From assembly GCA_020846875.1 (NCBI GenBank), contig JADLDB010000040.1, positions 1 to 52,809 on the forward strand: a stretch of 52,809 bases of DNA, written 5' to 3'. The stretch comes from Myxococcales bacterium. Its GTDB lineage: Bacteria; Myxococcota; Myxococcia; Myxococcales; Myxococcaceae. Below are positions 1,849 to 11,720 of the stretch, piece by piece. The notes under the pieces are model-generated. The model did not search any database, was not told the DNA's origin, and worked only from the letters and a program-made list of their open reading frames with translations. The translations under genes were made by a program, and so were the position numbers. How positions within the stretch are numbered: the first letter of the stretch is position 1; every line of letters begins with the position of its first letter.

Positions 1849-3165
1849 CTACAGCATGCCGATGGTCAGCGACTGCTGACGCTTGGTGAGCACCTTGATC
1901 GGCTGAATGGCCATCACCCGCATGAAGACGCGCATCAGCTCGGGATCGAACTTGTTGCGCATCTCCGTCCACATCAGCATCAGCGCCACCTCGGGGCCGT
2001 AGCTGTCACGGAAGGGCCGCTTGGAGGTCAGCGCGTCGTAGGTGGCGCACATAGAGATGACCTTCGCGTACAGCCCCAGGTTGGCCTTGGGGATGATCAT
2101 CTGGATGTTGCCCTGGCCGTCGCGCACCGCGGTGCCGAAGTCCACCTTGTGCTCGAAGGTGGTGACCAGCCGAAGCAGGGTGCCCCGGTTGATCGCCTTC
2201 TCGCGCAGAATGTTGCGCACCGCCACCAGCGGGGCCTTGTTGATCATCGCCCGCTCGTCCGGGGACAGCGCCCCGCGCTTGTTCAGCACCTCGTCGGGCA
2301 CCGTCCCCATGCCGGCGTCGTGGAACAGCGCGATATAGCCCAGGTCGCGCAGCTGCGGCTTGGTGAGCCCCATTTCACCCCCCACCACGATCGCCATCAG
2401 GCAGGTGTTGACCTGGTGGTAGCTCAAGTACTCCGAGTCGGTGCGGGTGGTGGTGAGCCCCAGGAAGTGCGTGCGGTGATCCAGGGAGATGTCCACGAAG
2501 TCCTGGATGATGCGCAGCGACTTGGAGGTGTTGAGCGGCGTGCCCTTCCGCAGCGACTCCATGTACTTGCGGATGAAGAAGATCGCTCGGCCGTAGCAGG
2601 TGAGCGCGTACTTCTTGCGATCCAGCTTGGCGTCGGACTCGTCCTTCTCGTTCTCCAGCTTGTCTTTCAGCTTGGACCACTTGGCCAGCTTCATGGACAT
2701 CAGCTTGCGGCCCTGCACGCCGTCCTCGTCGGCGTCATCGCCCTGATCCTTGGAGAAGATCCAGATGAAGTTCTTCAGCTCCGGGACGGTGACCGAGCGC
2801 ATCAGCGTCAGCCCGCCCACGTCCTTGTCCCGCAGCTCCTCGAGCAGGAACTTCACGTTGTCGAGCGCGGCCATGTCCACCTTCACCAGCATGCCGTTCA
2901 GGTAGAACGACTGCTTCACCCCCATCAGCTCCAGCTTCCCGTCCTTGCGGATGATCTGGTTCATCGTGTCCTGGAGCTGCGCCAGCGGCTTCTCGAACAC
3001 GTTGTTGTCCGGGTCGTACATCTTCACCGAGCGGACCAGCATGTAGAGCGCCGAGACGAGCGACTTACCCATCGCCTGCAGCTTCTCGTTGCTGTCCCGC
3101 CCGAAGATGTCGATCTTCGCGTCGTCCGCCTCGGCAGCGCGCGTGATCTGCAGGTTGTCAGCCAT
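1849..3165 (-). CDS. Degenerate HD-GYP-type protein with novel N-terminal domain
   Basis: 438 residues, cytoplasmic. Residues about 30-130 form an alpha/beta-looking domain that resembles the N-terminus of the HEAT protein encoded just upstream. Residues about 240-410 match the HD-GYP fold: 'YHQVNTC' (H250), 'LFHDAGMG' (H282, D283) and 'YDALTSKRPFRDS' (376-388). The HD pair is kept, but the usual HDIGK lysine is Met. The HHE-DGxGYP signature is replaced by 'EHKVDFG' and an insert. Active HD-GYP enzymes hydrolyse cyclic di-GMP; with these losses, hydrolysis is doubtful and a binding or scaffold role is more likely. The ATG start overlaps the HEAT gene by 8 bp. The 3' end faces rluA-type gene with a 3-bp gap. 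Confidence 0.85.
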   Translation of the reverse strand: MADNLQITRAAEADDAKIDIFGRDSNEKLQAMGKSLVSALYMLVRSVKMYDPDNNVFEKPLAQLQDTMNQIIRKDGKLELMGVKQSFYLNGMLVKVDMAALDNVKFLLEELRDKDVGGLTLMRSVTVPELKNFIWIFSKDQGDDADEDGVQGRKLMSMKLAKWSKLKDKLENEKDESDAKLDRKKYALTCYGRAIFFIRKYMESLRKGTPLNTSKSLRIIQDFVDISLDHRTHFLGLTTTRTDSEYLSYHQVNTCLMAIVVGGEMGLTKPQLRDLGYIALFHDAGMGTVPDEVLNKRGALSPDERAMINKAPLVAVRNILREKAINRGTLLRLVTTFEHKVDFGTAVRDGQGNIQMIIPKANLGLYAKVISMCATYDALTSKRPFRDSYGPEVALMLMWTEMRNKFDPELMRVFMRVMAIQPIKVLTKRQQSLTIGML

Positions 3166-4969
3166 GCGCGTGCTCCGGGTGCTCGGTGTTGCCGAACAGC
3201 TGCTTGCGCACGCGCGCCAGGTGGATCCGCGCCGCCTTCACCACCTCGGGCGGCTGTGCCTTGTCCTCTGTGAGCTCCTGCAGCAGCTTGGCGTTCTGGA
3301 TGGTGGGGGCCCCACCCAGCCCGGCCACCGCGAGCAGCTTGTCGGTGGTCACCTTCTGCTTGTTGAACAGGCCCGCCTTGGTCTGCAGAAGCTGGCTGAA
3401 GTAGGTGATGGCGCCACCCAGGCCGGTGGAGCCGATGGCCGTGTACAGCGCCTCCCGCTCCTCCGGCTTCTTCTCCTCGAAGTCATGGTCCTTGACCAAC
3501 TTCATCAGCTCCACGAAGGCCTTCTCGCGATCGAACTCCGGCAGCACGCGCGCCGCCTGGATCCGCACCTGCATGATCGGATCGGTGAGCAGGGAGGTGA
3601 TCATGTTGCGCGCCTCGCCGGTGCGGCCCTTGGCGATGATCCCCATCACCTCCAGCTTCAGCGCCAGGTTCTTGGACTTGAGCAGCGCCTGGAAGAACTT
3701 GAGCTTCTCGGGGTGGTTGGACCGATCGAGGATGTAGACGAGATCACGCTGAAGCTGCGGGCGCTCGGTGGCGCGGATCCGATCCACGAAGGGCTCGGGG
3801 TGCTCCTTGGCCACCGGCACCAGCACGTCGCACAACAGGGTGCGGTTCTCCGGCAGCTCCAGCACCTCCAGCACGTCGAGCAGCAGCGGCGCGCACTCGC
3901 GCCCCAGGTTGGACAGGTAGCGCACCATGTCCTGGGGGTGCTTGAGCTTGGAGAACTTGAGCACGTCGCCCACCCGGTTGACGCGCTGCTCGTCGCCCAT
4001 GCGCGAGACGAAGGCGGTGAGCAGGTGCCCGATGGGGCTGTCCTTGCCCGAGCGCTGCTCCATGGCCTTGAGCTTCAAGACGACCTGGTTGATCAGCGCG
4101 AAGTCCTCCTGCAGCAGCATGGCGTCGAGAAGCTGCGTGAACATGTCGGTGAGCAGCTCGGCGTCGTCGATGCCCGACTCGACCACCTGGAAGACGGCGC
4201 TGATCAGCTTGGGGAAGAGACGCATGTTCTCTTCCTCGTGCACGTCCTTCTGCAGGCGGGCCTTGAGATCCGGCGTGGCGGTGACGCCGGTGATCACCAG
4301 GCCGCGCATCTGCTCCACGTCCTCCAGCTTGATCTCCAGGTCCGCCTCGGTGAGCCGGGCGAAGCGCAGGTAGTCGTCGTTGTTCGAGCGAAGGCGCCGC
4401 TGCAGGTAGTCCACCACCTTGTCGACCTCGACCTGGACCTCCTCCTCGGAGAACTCGTCCATCTTGAAGCCTTCGACCATGATGTATTCGAAGTGCGGCA
4501 TCTGGGCGCGCCAGAGCTGGTTGTTGAGATCCTCGGCGCCGCGATCCGGATCCGAAAGGGAGATCACCGTGAACATCGTCAGCTCTTCCACCGTGAAGCC
4601 GGCGCGGAAGATCAGCTGGCGGATCCCGTCCTTGTAGAACTTGTAGGGGATCGGGTTGTCCTCGGTGAACAGGTCCTGCTTGTGGAGCGTGAAGTTGGTC
4701 AGCTCCACCTTGAGCTGCAGCGGTCCGTACTGGGTGGTGTACTCGTTGAGCGCCGTGCACGCCTTCTGCAGGTACTCGCCGTACTTGGCCTCGTTGTGGC
4801 GGTACATGCCGATCACCTTGATGCCCTTGAGCAGGTGAAAGGCCACGCCACGCGCCGCCTCGACCTGCTTCTTGAGGGCCGGATCCGACATGGGATCCAC
4901 AGGGGCCGTGGAGGCGTTGGGAGAGTCGGCGATGGGCTTGAGCGGCGGGGCGGGTGCGCGGGCTGCCAT
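3158..4969 (-). CDS. HEAT-repeat protein sharing N-terminal domain with the HD-GYP-like partner
   Basis: 603 residues, no signal peptide or membrane span, so probably cytoplasmic. After a Pro/Ala-rich leader, residues about 40-150 contain 'KGIKVIGMYRHNEAKYGEYL' and 'GIRQLIFRAGFTVEELTMF', a layout that parallels the N-terminus of the downstream gene product. The rest is helical. The C-terminal half (about 390-590) carries HEAT-like repeats such as 'DPIMQVRIQAARVLPEFD', which normally form a protein-binding solenoid. It is the middle gene of a minus-strand unit, 81 bp behind the cyclic-nucleotide-binding gene and overlapping the next gene by 8 bp. Function unknown; a scaffold in a signalling complex is inferred. 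ATG start with GCGAGG just upstream. Confidence 0.85.
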   Translation of the reverse strand: MAARAPAPPLKPIADSPNASTAPVDPMSDPALKKQVEAARGVAFHLLKGIKVIGMYRHNEAKYGEYLQKACTALNEYTTQYGPLQLKVELTNFTLHKQDLFTEDNPIPYKFYKDGIRQLIFRAGFTVEELTMFTVISLSDPDRGAEDLNNQLWRAQMPHFEYIMVEGFKMDEFSEEEVQVEVDKVVDYLQRRLRSNNDDYLRFARLTEADLEIKLEDVEQMRGLVITGVTATPDLKARLQKDVHEEENMRLFPKLISAVFQVVESGIDDAELLTDMFTQLLDAMLLQEDFALINQVVLKLKAMEQRSGKDSPIGHLLTAFVSRMGDEQRVNRVGDVLKFSKLKHPQDMVRYLSNLGRECAPLLLDVLEVLELPENRTLLCDVLVPVAKEHPEPFVDRIRATERPQLQRDLVYILDRSNHPEKLKFFQALLKSKNLALKLEVMGIIAKGRTGEARNMITSLLTDPIMQVRIQAARVLPEFDREKAFVELMKLVKDHDFEEKKPEEREALYTAIGSTGLGGAITYFSQLLQTKAGLFNKQKVTTDKLLAVAGLGGAPTIQNAKLLQELTEDKAQPPEVVKAARIHLARVRKQLFGNTEHPEHAHG

Positions 4970-5050
4970 GGCCTCGCCAGTGTAGCCGCGCTCGCCCCGG
5001 TGCGGCGCGCTTCTGCCCCGGCTGTCGTACCTTGTCGCACTCGCCGGGGA

Positions 5051-5464
5051 TCAGCGGATCGCGTCCCTCAGCCGGCGAGTCAGCACCTGGATGATCCCCT
5101 GCGCGATCTCCGGCTTCTCGGTCATGATCTCCTGGAAGTCCTCGCGGGTGATCTTGAGCAGGCTGGTGTCGGAGACGGCGGTGACGGTGGCCGAGCGCGG
5201 CGCCGCGTCGAGGATCGCCATCTCCCCGAAGCACTCCCGCTCGCCCAGCTCGGCGATCACCCGGTCCGCCTTGTGGACGCGCACCTTGCCGTCGATCACC
5301 AGGTACAGCGCGTCGCCCGACTCGCCCTCGGCGAAGATCTCGTCGCCCTGGTCGCGCTGCTCCTCGGTGGAGATCAGCGCCACGGCGGCCAGGTCCTCGC
5401 CGGGGATCTGCGAGAACAGATCGATCGACTTGAGGAACAGCACTTTCTCGACGGTGGTGATCAT
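5051..5464 (-). CDS. Stand-alone cyclic nucleotide-binding domain protein
   Basis: 137 residues that consist almost entirely of one cNMP-binding (Crp/PKA regulatory) domain. The phosphate-binding cassette is intact: 'FGEMAILDAAPRSATVTA' has the Glu and Arg that hold the cyclic phosphate and ribose. There is no DNA-binding helix-turn-helix at the C-terminus, so it is not a Crp-type transcription factor. It probably regulates a partner protein on binding cAMP or cGMP. The opening 'TTVEKVLFLKSIDLF' resembles, from memory, the cNMP domain found at the C-terminus of NTT-type transporters with HEAT repeats, and such a transporter (without this domain) is encoded nearby. It heads the minus-strand unit with the HEAT and HD-GYP-like genes. 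Confidence 0.88.
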   Translation of the reverse strand: MITTVEKVLFLKSIDLFSQIPGEDLAAVALISTEEQRDQGDEIFAEGESGDALYLVIDGKVRVHKADRVIAELGERECFGEMAILDAAPRSATVTAVSDTSLLKITREDFQEIMTEKPEIAQGIIQVLTRRLRDAIR

Positions 5465-5560: not shown

Positions 5561-5836
5561 ATGGATCTCAAGCTCGTCGCCACCACCTTTGCCGCCGTCT
5601 TCCTCGCCGAGCTGGGGGACAAGACGCAGCTCGCCACGCTGTCCTTCTCTGCGGCGGGCGCCTCGCGCCTGTCCGTCTTCGTGGGCGCTGCGGCGGCGCT
5701 GGTCGCCACCACGGCGATCGCCGTCCTCGCGGGCGAAGCGCTCACCCGGTGGATCTCACCGCGGGCGCTCCAGCGCCTGGCCGGCCTGTCCTTCGTGGTG
5801 ATCGGCGGGTGGGTGCTGTGGTCAACCCGCTCCTGA
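5561..5836 (+). CDS. TMEM165/GDT1 (UPF0016) family membrane protein, single-repeat form
   Basis: 91 residues with three hydrophobic segments and the family signature 'AELGDKTQLAT' near residues 16-26. The acidic residues of this motif lie in the cation path of TMEM165/Gdt1-type proteins, which move Mn2+ or Ca2+ in exchange for protons. Most members have two copies of the motif; this one has one, so a homodimer or heterodimer would be needed to build a transporter. The only other membrane gene beside it belongs to an unrelated family. It is oriented against both neighbours, and its last 15 bp overlap the convergent transporter gene. Confidence 0.85.
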   Translation: MDLKLVATTFAAVFLAELGDKTQLATLSFSAAGASRLSVFVGAAAALVATTAIAVLAGEALTRWISPRALQRLAGLSFVVIGGWVLWSTRS

Positions 5837-8736: not shown

Positions 8737-10773
8737 TCAGCTCGGCCCTGGCTCCTGGGCACGGGAGTTCCGAGGGGACAGCTCCCGCTCCAGGGAATGG
8801 AGCAGCGCGCGGCGCTCGGCCGACGGCAGGGGCCGCGCCCCGAAGCGGGCTTCGAGGTAGCGCCGCGTCACCCGCTGCAGCGTCGCAGCGGCCGGGTGAC
8901 GCCGGGACGACAGGCGGCGGGACAGCTCCTCCAGCCCTTCGCCGTCCTGTCGGGCGATGTGGGCACGGCTCAGCCGGCGCTCCACCTCGGTGAGGAAGCT
9001 CGTGGCGGGGTGGGGCCGCTGGGCCAGCCGGCGGGACAGTCCGCGCCAGACGAGCCAGGTCAGCACCACCGCCGCCAGCGCGCCCAGCACCTGACGAAAG
9101 GGGACGGTGCCGCCGGTGGCCTCCGGGTGAGCGTCGTCGGTGCGCTGGCCGCGCGGGGGCTGGACCAGGTCGCGGACGAAGCCCACCTGGTCGATCAAGG
9201 AGTAGTCGACCACCCGCTTGCGCCAGTACTCCTCCAGGGACTCGTAGAGGTCGATGAGGCGCGCCAGCGCGGCGATCGGTTGGTTGCTGCGGCCGGCCTC
9301 CGGGGTGGCGTCAAGCGTGATCCAACCCCGGCCGTCGATCCACGCCTCCACCCAGGCGTGCGCGTCTCCAGCGCGCACCACGTAGCGCTCCCCGACGCGC
9401 TCGCCGCCGAAGAACCCGCCCACCACCCGGGAGGGGATGCCTCGAGTGCGCAAGAGCACCGCCAGCGCGGTGGCGAAGTGCTCGCAGTGGCCCGCGCGCC
9501 GATCGAACAGGAAGTGGGACAGGGGGGCGTCGCCTTCCCCCGCAAGCTCGAGCGTGTACCCGAGGTTGTTCTTGAGCCAGCCCTCGAGCTTGCGAGCCAC
9601 CGACCTGGGATCGCCGTCGGTACCGGCCACCCGCTCCGCCAGCTGGGCGACGCGGGGATCGAGGTGCTCCGGCAGGGCCAGGGCGCGCGCCCGCTCGTCC
9701 TCGTCCAGCCTCCCCGCCGGAATGTCCCCGCCAAAGGTGAAGGCCACGTACCGGTAGGCGTTGCCGGGCGTGGCGAAGTGGACCTCCTCGCCCTTGACGA
9801 TCACCATCAGGGCCGTGGTGCTGCCCGCGGTCGAGAGGGCCTGCGCCTGGCTGAAGGCCAACGGCTGGGCGAGGCCGATCAGCGTGCGGGACTCGTAGGC
9901 CGGCAGCAGCTCGATGCGCTGCACCTGGGTCCCGGGGATGAGGGGGCTGAGCCCGGCGTAGACCTTCGGCGCGCCGGGGACGCCCGAGCCGCGCCACTCC
10001 TGGCCGTCGAAGGTGTCGAAGTGGCGGCCCACCCAGTAGCGCTCCAGGTGATCGACTCCGGGATCCGGGTCCAGGGTCGCGCGCGCCACCACCCGCGCGC
10101 TGGTCTTGATGCTCCCGCCGCCACCCAGGCGCACCCGGTCGGTCATACCCGTGGTGCCGCCGAGGAGCGGCGGGGTGGCCCGGCGGGCGGCGACGTTCCA
10201 GGAGATGCGGGGAAAGAGGATGAAGAAGGCGACCCCCCCGGCGAGCGCCAGCGCCACCCCCACGCTCACCTGGCGGAGGACCGGACGCAGCGGAAGATCC
10301 TCGTCGCGCTCCACCGGCCCCTCCACCACCCCCAGCCCCAGGGTGAGGCAGGCGAACACGCCGAAGGCCAGCAGGCAGGCCGCGTACCAGATCTCACCGG
10401 ACAGGGCGGCGGCGCCGGCGATGAGCAGGAGCGAAGCCAACAGCACCTGGCGATCGGTGGCTGGCTCGGGCGCCGCCAGCATGCGGTGGGCGGTCACCAG
10501 CGAGGCGAACGCGACGGCCGCCACCACCAGGTTGAGCGCGCCGCGAAAGGCGAGGCCGAAGAGGATCACCGCCAGGGCCAGCAGCACCAGGACCGCGCCC
10601 GTCCGGAGCCCCGCCAGTGGGCGGAAGCCGAGGAGCGCGACGATGAAGGACAGCGCGAACAACACCGAGACCCACACCGGCATGGCGCCGGACAGCGCGA
10701 CCGCAGCGTAAGCAGACGCCGCGGCGAGATCGCGCAGCCGCAGCCTGAGCTTCCTCCGGCTCGCCAGGTTCAC
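8737..10773 (-). CDS. TgpA-like membrane transglutaminase (DUF3488-transglutaminase)
   Basis: 678 residues from a GTG at 10773 that overlaps the DUF58 gene stop (GTGA); a longer frame exists upstream but lies inside that gene. About residues 15-185 hold several membrane segments (DUF3488). A transglutaminase-like core follows, with the triad Cys430 ('GHCEHFA'), His472 ('DAHAWVEAW') and Asp488 ('TLDATPE') in normal spacing. A further membrane segment lies near residue 565, with a short cytoplasmic tail. In Pseudomonas aeruginosa TgpA the catalytic domain is periplasmic. Last gene of a MoxR-DUF58-TgpA operon, an arrangement widespread in bacteria and usually linked to envelope protein assembly or modification. 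Substrate unknown. Confidence 0.92.
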   Translation of the reverse strand: MNLASRRKLRLRLRDLAAASAYAAVALSGAMPVWVSVLFALSFIVALLGFRPLAGLRTGAVLVLLALAVILFGLAFRGALNLVVAAVAFASLVTAHRMLAAPEPATDRQVLLASLLLIAGAAALSGEIWYAACLLAFGVFACLTLGLGVVEGPVERDEDLPLRPVLRQVSVGVALALAGGVAFFILFPRISWNVAARRATPPLLGGTTGMTDRVRLGGGGSIKTSARVVARATLDPDPGVDHLERYWVGRHFDTFDGQEWRGSGVPGAPKVYAGLSPLIPGTQVQRIELLPAYESRTLIGLAQPLAFSQAQALSTAGSTTALMVIVKGEEVHFATPGNAYRYVAFTFGGDIPAGRLDEDERARALALPEHLDPRVAQLAERVAGTDGDPRSVARKLEGWLKNNLGYTLELAGEGDAPLSHFLFDRRAGHCEHFATALAVLLRTRGIPSRVVGGFFGGERVGERYVVRAGDAHAWVEAWIDGRGWITLDATPEAGRSNQPIAALARLIDLYESLEEYWRKRVVDYSLIDQVGFVRDLVQPPRGQRTDDAHPEATGGTVPFRQVLGALAAVVLTWLVWRGLSRRLAQRPHPATSFLTEVERRLSRAHIARQDGEGLEELSRRLSSRRHPAAATLQRVTRRYLEARFGARPLPSAERRALLHSLERELSPRNSRAQEPGPS

Positions 10774-11720
10774 GGCGCGTGGCCTCCGCGCGGCTCGTCG
10801 AAGCCCAGGAAGGCCAGCGCGGTGAGCACCCGCTTCTCGTGCCCCGGCCCGGAGCCGGGGCGGATCTTCCGCCCGTGCGCCAGCAGCCCCACCTCCGCCC
10901 CGTCCTCGAGCAGCCGGCGGGTGAGCGCGGCCGTCTCCTCGCACGCGCGCTCCAGGGCGTCGCCTTCGCGCTCGGTGACGCTGAGCGTGTACTGGGGGCG
11001 ATCTTCCCGCTCTCGCTCCACCTTGAGCAACTGCGCGGCGGCGGCGCTCTTCTTCCAGTGGACCCGGCGCGCGTCCTCCCCCGGCTCGAGCTCGCGCAGG
11101 CCCAGCAGATCTCCGGCGCCGTCGCGGTGGCGGCCGGTGCTGCTGTCACCCTGGTGGAGGGCGTCCGCGGAGCCGGGGGGCTCGCAGCTGAAGCCACGGC
11201 GGGGAAAGATCACCAGCCCGTCCGCGAGCAGGGCGGTGCGCGTCTTCTCGAAGAGGCCGAAGGGGAAGAGGGTGGTGATCCGCACGCCCGTCAGCTTGAG
11301 CGGGCCACGCCGCGGCGCCACCACGTCAGCCCGCACCACCTCCGGCCGGCCCTGCGCGACGTAGGGGATCCACCCTGAGCCCTTCAGCGCCGAGTCGGCC
11401 TCCGACACCTCCAGCGCGAAGGCCTGCCCGCGGGTGCGGGTCACCTCGTAGCGCAGGGGGAAGGGCTCGCCGGCGAAGGCCCCGTCCGGCAGCAGCCGCC
11501 GTACCCGCACGTCGCGGATCGCGCGCTCGGACAGCACGCCGGACAGGACGATCACCGCGAGCAGGAAGCCCAGCACCAGGTACAGCAGGTTGTTGCCGGT
11601 GTTGAGCGCACCCAGTCCGATGCCCACGGTGAGCACCAGGTAGGTACGGCCGGCGCGGGTCACCTTGAGGGTGCGCGGCGGCTTCATCCACTGCCTGAGG
11701 CGCTCGCGCCAGCTGGCCAT
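10770..11720 (-). CDS. DUF58 domain protein
   Basis: 316 residues. Two adjacent hydrophobic stretches at about 25-65 form a membrane hairpin. The conserved DUF58 block appears as 'GDLLGLRELEPGEDARRVHWKKSAAA', here split by position: 'LRELEPGEDARRVHWKKSA' lies near residues 208-226. A preceding sandwich-like domain contains 'FPFGLFEK'. DUF58 proteins are companions of MoxR ATPases; some have a von Willebrand A-like fold. Role inferred: membrane partner through which the MoxR ATPase acts on envelope substrates. It is 15 bp downstream of the MoxR gene and coupled by a 4-bp overlap to the transglutaminase gene. ATG start. Confidence 0.92.
   Translation of the reverse strand: MASWRERLRQWMKPPRTLKVTRAGRTYLVLTVGIGLGALNTGNNLLYLVLGFLLAVIVLSGVLSERAIRDVRVRRLLPDGAFAGEPFPLRYEVTRTRGQAFALEVSEADSALKGSGWIPYVAQGRPEVVRADVVAPRRGPLKLTGVRITTLFPFGLFEKTRTALLADGLVIFPRRGFSCEPPGSADALHQGDSSTGRHRDGAGDLLGLRELEPGEDARRVHWKKSAAAAQLLKVEREREDRPQYTLSVTEREGDALERACEETAALTRRLLEDGAEVGLLAHGRKIRPGSGPGHEKRVLTALAFLGFDEPRGGHAP

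Follow-up and report, generated by a model that had tools for sequence, protein, structure and literature searches.

Do three adjacent genes on the minus strand of a 52,809-nucleotide stretch of DNA from a Myxococcales bacterium (hereafter the window) encode the parts of a single signalling unit, and does a cyclic mononucleotide (cNMP)-binding protein belong to it? The genes lie where the first-pass annotation had placed them and encode a stand-alone cNMP-binding protein of 137 amino acids (5051..5464; PF00027, 4e-22), a HEAT protein of 603 amino acids composed of an N-terminal domain and a HEAT solenoid (3158..4969; PF13646, 1.3e-8; AlphaFold mean pLDDT 85), and an HD-GYP-like protein of 438 amino acids (HD protein) in which the same N-terminal domain precedes a degenerate HD-GYP domain (1849..3165; PF13487, 5.5e-12; AlphaFold mean pLDDT 76). 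Positions refer to the whole window and residue numbers to the respective protein; the source genome comprises 7.1 Mb in 200 contigs. The annotation had proposed all three genes as an undescribed unit. The HEAT and HD genes do form a real module of two genes, one that had not been described before and that contains a new domain, but the cNMP-binding gene could not be retained as a member, since it tracks a translocase gene in 21 of 96 Myxococcaceae genomes.

The shared N-terminal domain (N-domain) spans residues 25-158 of the HEAT protein (4496..4897, minus strand; hhalign), where no Pfam family scored above the cut-off, and residues 19-155 of the HD protein (2701..3111, minus strand; hhalign and DSSP), likewise without a Pfam family. 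BLASTP of the two window proteins against each other returned no match. Family profiles derived from 113 HD and 102 HEAT N-terminal sequences, on the other hand, were aligned by hhalign over HD residues 19-151 and HEAT residues 25-150 with a probability of 96.4% (E 1.3e-9), compared with less than 0.4% for controls with the C-terminal parts, a maximum of 12% in 200 column shuffles and of 47% in 200 block shuffles, and 0.2% for a reversed profile. The signal depends on profile diversity, because narrow profiles (A6/A7) yielded 12% and broader ones (A8/A9) 95.0% (E 3.9e-8), with an identical register. Using HMMER, the HEAT N-domain profile hit one of the other HD proteins encoded in this genome (2e-8) and further HD proteins (6.6e-6), in each case at the N-terminus, and the HD N-domain profile in turn hit a HEAT protein at its N-terminus (3.5e-6). 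In the window pair only 22 of 126 aligned residues are identical; the secondary structures of the AlphaFold models agree at 105 of these positions (83%; maximum of 56% in circular shifts), and DSSP assigned both N-domains the same predicted order of helix-helix-strand-strand-helix-strand-helix. The first-pass annotation had described parallel N-termini, shared motifs and one domain placed on two different output folds, and each of these observations held up: the hhalign register pairs GIKVIGMYRHN with VRSVKMYDPDN and TVEELTMF with TVPELKNF, and the related N-domains are followed by an HD-GYP domain in one protein and a HEAT solenoid in the other.

Residues G115, R117 and W153 are invariant in the HEAT version of the N-domain. 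A Pfam scan of 35 N-domain sequences produced only scattered weak matches to unrelated families, none of which was matched by more than two members, a PDB sequence search gave no convincing match, and fold searches with the full models mainly picked up the HD and HEAT parts. When 58 Myxococcota genomes were searched for the N-domain on other outputs, the HD-type profile recovered only HD proteins of pairs and their HEAT partners. Judged by profiles and predicted structure, the N-domains of the two proteins are homologous by shared ancestry and represent a new, previously unclassified domain.

The two genes are also inherited together. The HD protein and the HEAT protein are each present in 127 of 193 Myxococcota genomes, in nearly identical sets. 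Gene order was compared in 80 loci taken from whole genomes and in roughly 70 named loci: where there was sufficient flanking sequence, essentially every locus had the HEAT gene immediately before the HD gene, with both on one strand, and in most cases the two are closely spaced. The exceptions (L116, L121, L156 and L215) are located at the ends of contigs; next to L121 a truncated HD N-domain can still be recognised. Thirteen of 13 further distant loci, chosen by the HD-type N-domain alone without use of adjacency, have an adjoining HEAT protein. Up to four pairs occur per genome, as in the genome of the window (designated C40, C28, C121 and C2). For 76 pairs, the tree distances of the HD proteins and of the HEAT proteins show a correlation of 0.949 (0.30 at most in 2000 permutations), and when partners were swapped between paralogous pairs within a genome, the fit was never better than with the true partners. 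In the window, the end of the HEAT gene and the beginning of the HD gene share 8 bp (ATGGCTGA, 3158..3165, minus strand), as the first-pass annotation had noted, which suggests coupled translation; in M. xanthus AM003 the two genes are separated by 4 bp. A scan of named genomes found full-length orthologs only in Myxococcota-type records, with the exception of one record (L167, BNCN01000021.1) that is titled Comamonas sp. KCTC 72670 and is probably mislabelled, because it carries a typical Myxococcus locus. No paper on a HEAT/HD-GYP pair was found in the literature. On the evidence of these distributions and trees, the pairing of the HEAT and HD genes is ancient, and the two duplicate and diverge as one evolutionary unit.

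How would such a pair work? We lean, with slightly more confidence than doubt, towards the two proteins being obligate partners of a cytoplasmic signalling complex in Myxococcota, in which a pseudo-phosphodiesterase switch is combined with a HEAT scaffold. The pair looks like the two halves of one complex because the proteins of adjacent genes begin with the same domain. Through their paired N-domains, the proteins would be joined in a pseudo-symmetric heterodimer, with the HD-GYP domain of the window lineage serving as a ligand- or interaction-driven switch instead of a phosphodiesterase and the HEAT solenoid possibly binding the target. This solenoid (residues 233-592; 3194..4273, minus strand; delimited by DSSP of the AlphaFold model and Foldseek) consists of tandem antiparallel helix pairs, in agreement with PF13646 and with HEAT-type Foldseek and VIA matches, the former including alphaRep, importin and Integrator HEAT proteins. 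An alpha-solenoid of this type is common to the bacterial HEAT-repeat proteins PomY of M. xanthus, NblB and the CpcE-type lyases, from which the window protein differs in its additional N-domain and the adjoining HD gene. We take it not to be PomY, as its gene neighbours are different.

In some paralogous pairs a Ser/Thr protein kinase is probably the target or output, because in two loci (L253:3577-6515 and L254:4310-7000) the HD protein carries a fused Ser/Thr kinase domain at its C-terminus and in several others a kinase is encoded nearby. Kinases were detected near six other divergent pairs (including L103, L118, L119 and L262), making eight of 40 divergent loci in all as opposed to one of 55 in the main lineage, with an assumed value as the background rate. 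The kinase association of divergent pairs is suggestive only, and for the lineage of the window it was rejected on the one-in-55 count. Several of these observations weigh against the complex as proposed. The two fusions both come from one family, the kinase link does not explain the window's own pair given its rarity in the main lineage, the N-domain is not always needed, since the HD protein of the C2 pair has no detectable one, and the conserved neighbourhood and co-duplication would also fit two proteins acting sequentially in one pathway. A more far-reaching proposal, which we offer only tentatively, is that of a phylum-wide Myxococcota family of heteromeric switches built from the new, heterodimerising domain, a (pseudo-)cyclic-dinucleotide phosphodiesterase and a HEAT scaffold, present in several parallel copies per cell and wired to Ser/Thr kinases in some cases and to cyclic mononucleotide cyclases or sensors in others.

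Of the competing explanations, the one that fares best holds that the two proteins act sequentially or are merely co-regulated, each forming homodimers through its N-domain without a direct complex, as homologous domains would be capable of doing. We consider this rather unlikely: the partners have co-duplicated across paralogs and are adjacent almost universally, often with overlapping reading frames, and a stoichiometric complex is favoured over separate action on these grounds.

The proposed switch function of the HD protein refers to the state of its HD-GYP domain (residues 177-420; 1906..2637, minus strand; from alignment and residue tally). The fold is matched by PF13487, Foldseek and VIA, the latter aligning residues 177-421 with Z 20.9 to Bd1817 of Bdellovibrio bacteriovorus (3TM8; 215 residues, 3.1 A) and with Z 16.3 to PmGH. 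The domain retains H250, the HD dyad H282-D283 and H339, corresponding to PmGH H189, H221, D222 and H276. By comparison, A311, K340 and A374 occupy the positions of the PmGH metal ligands H250, H277 and D305, M286 replaces the catalytic lysine, V347-R348-D349 replace GYP, with EHKVDFGTAVRD standing for the HHExxDGxGYP motif, and the equivalent of PmGH E185 is uncertain, with E245 shifted by one. The set of eight metal ligands listed for PmGH (E185, H189, H221, D222, H250, H276, H277 and D305; PMC4159591) is consequently incomplete. The description of the domain as degenerate in the first-pass annotation was therefore accurate, with the catalytic lysine, several metal ligands and GYP all lost. 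Among 90 main-lineage relatives, H250 is kept in 90, H282 in 83 and D283 in 81, the D305 position is variable (D in 45), and most have lost the catalytic lysine, H311, H340 and GYP, several being without even the HD dyad. In the distant paired HD proteins of L105, L107, L114, L122 and L144, the lysine, the histidines and GYP are all present. The pair thus occurs in active-looking as well as degenerate forms, of which the active form is presumably ancestral.

If the HD protein were instead an active phosphodiesterase for cyclic dinucleotides, with a changed metal site and under the control of the HEAT protein, this would agree with the nearly constant presence of H250 and the HD dyad in the main lineage, with the full motif of the distant members and with a fold like that of active HD-GYP enzymes. 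The residues lost in most of the 90 proteins are, however, metal ligands, catalytic or substrate-contacting in PmGH (PMC4159591), and together with the occasional loss of the dyad itself they make this alternative improbable. The same picture emerges from comparison with the HD-GYP phosphodiesterases PmGH (4MCW), PA4781 (4R8Z), V-cGAP3 (5Z7C) and PmxA of M. xanthus: the window protein is like them in its fold over residues 177-421, the HD dyad, the first helix histidine and D377, but has neither the catalytic lysine, the equivalents of PmGH H250, H277 and D305, nor GYP, and it differs from them in possessing an unclassified N-domain and adjoining a HEAT gene. Its best structural match, the inactive HD-GYP protein Bd1817, also has no complete GYP, but differs in its retained di-iron site and closed lid (PMC4159591). 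Bd1817 aligns only over the HD domain (its residues 80-306), and its short N-terminus was rejected as a candidate for the same N-domain because the VIA alignment covered the HD part only.

Is the cNMP-binding gene, then, a third member of the pair? Its product contains the phosphate-binding cassette FGEMAILDAAPRSATV with E81 and R90 and matched proteins of the PKA, PKG and CRP type, with which it has the full cyclic nucleotide-binding (CNB) domain and the Glu and Arg of the cassette in common; unlike these, it is a single domain without an output and co-occurs with a translocase-like gene. In the window, 81 bp separate the gene from the start of the HEAT gene downstream. A complex of all three proteins, in which the cNMP-binding protein feeds a cyclic mononucleotide signal to the HEAT and HD proteins, would draw on the adjoining, co-directional arrangement in the window and close relatives, on separate small cNMP-binding genes that follow, 0.3-0.4 kb downstream, three distant pairs with an intact catalytic site (L107:8002-8583, L114:1255-1737 and L122:7318-7800), and on class III cyclase domains encoded next to two other pairs of this genome, C28 and C2 (L249:6242-10165 and L250:6296-7903, one of these genes also encoding kinase and AAA domains). 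Orthologs of the window's cNMP-binding gene, however, were present in only 21 of 96 Myxococcaceae genomes, exactly those carrying orthologs of the translocase-like transporter gene (TLC, PF03219; 5822..8722, minus strand), which encodes C-terminal HEAT repeats. Myxococcus, Corallococcus and others possess the pair without either gene, one genome (G168) has the cNMP-binding and translocase genes without a detected pair, and in two others (G138 and G087) about 2.5-3 kb separate the cNMP-binding gene from the pair. We therefore regard the three-gene complex as more doubtful still than an active enzyme.

Because both occur in the identical 21 genomes, the cNMP-binding gene was reassigned to the transporter, with which it likely forms a cNMP-linked transporter unit; it may regulate, or be co-regulated with, this adjoining nucleotide-translocase-like transporter instead of the pair. 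By its distribution it is a neighbour and not a general member of the pair. The three-gene order seen by the first-pass annotation accordingly divides into a HEAT-HD order that is conserved across Myxococcota and a cNMP-binding gene that does not travel with it, and the idea of a complex joining cyclic mononucleotide and cyclic di-GMP inputs is unsupported for the whole unit. The cNMP-binding genes and cyclases near other pairs are suggestive at most of a looser tie to cyclic mononucleotides, since the window's genome holds 31 cNMP domains. As a general rule the cyclase association was dismissed, as a hidden Markov model built from the cyclases next to C28 and C2 detected no further cyclase in the examined loci.

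Finally, convergence of helix and strand patterns in place of homology between the N-termini, to which the low identity of the window pair and the score of the narrow profiles might point, is highly improbable given the lower scores of shuffled profiles, the reciprocal HMMER matches and the common order of predicted elements.

In reading order, the minus-strand genes of this region encode a TgpA/transglutaminase protein (8737-10944), the transporter, the cNMP-binding protein, the HEAT protein and the HD protein. A GDT1-type gene with a single repeat (91 amino acids; 5561-5836, plus strand) is located between the transporter and cNMP-binding genes on the opposite strand. Beyond the pair, an 87-amino-acid protein without a Pfam match, whose relatives are 67-91% identical, is encoded at 647-910 on the plus strand by a gene that overlaps the start of a gene for an RluD-type pseudouridine synthase. 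A defence system was considered and rejected: PADLOC returned only weak generic HEAT matches, and its CNB-domain matches were to effectors with TIR or cyclase parts that are missing from this locus.

Inactivation of all 36 GGDEF, EAL and HD-GYP genes of M. xanthus, six of them HD-GYP, is reported to have revealed that only three enzymatically active proteins mattered under standard conditions, and most HD-GYP-type proteins of Myxococcus are without a known role (PMC8844925). The second-messenger wiring of myxobacteria is unusually rich, and the pair with its new domain offers a concrete unit for its study. Assigning the cNMP-binding gene to a nucleotide-translocase-like transporter, a pairing that can be tested in its own right, corrects the apparent cNMP link of this locus, and the HEAT/HD pair suggests that HD-GYP domains that have degenerated are kept as components of stable complexes.

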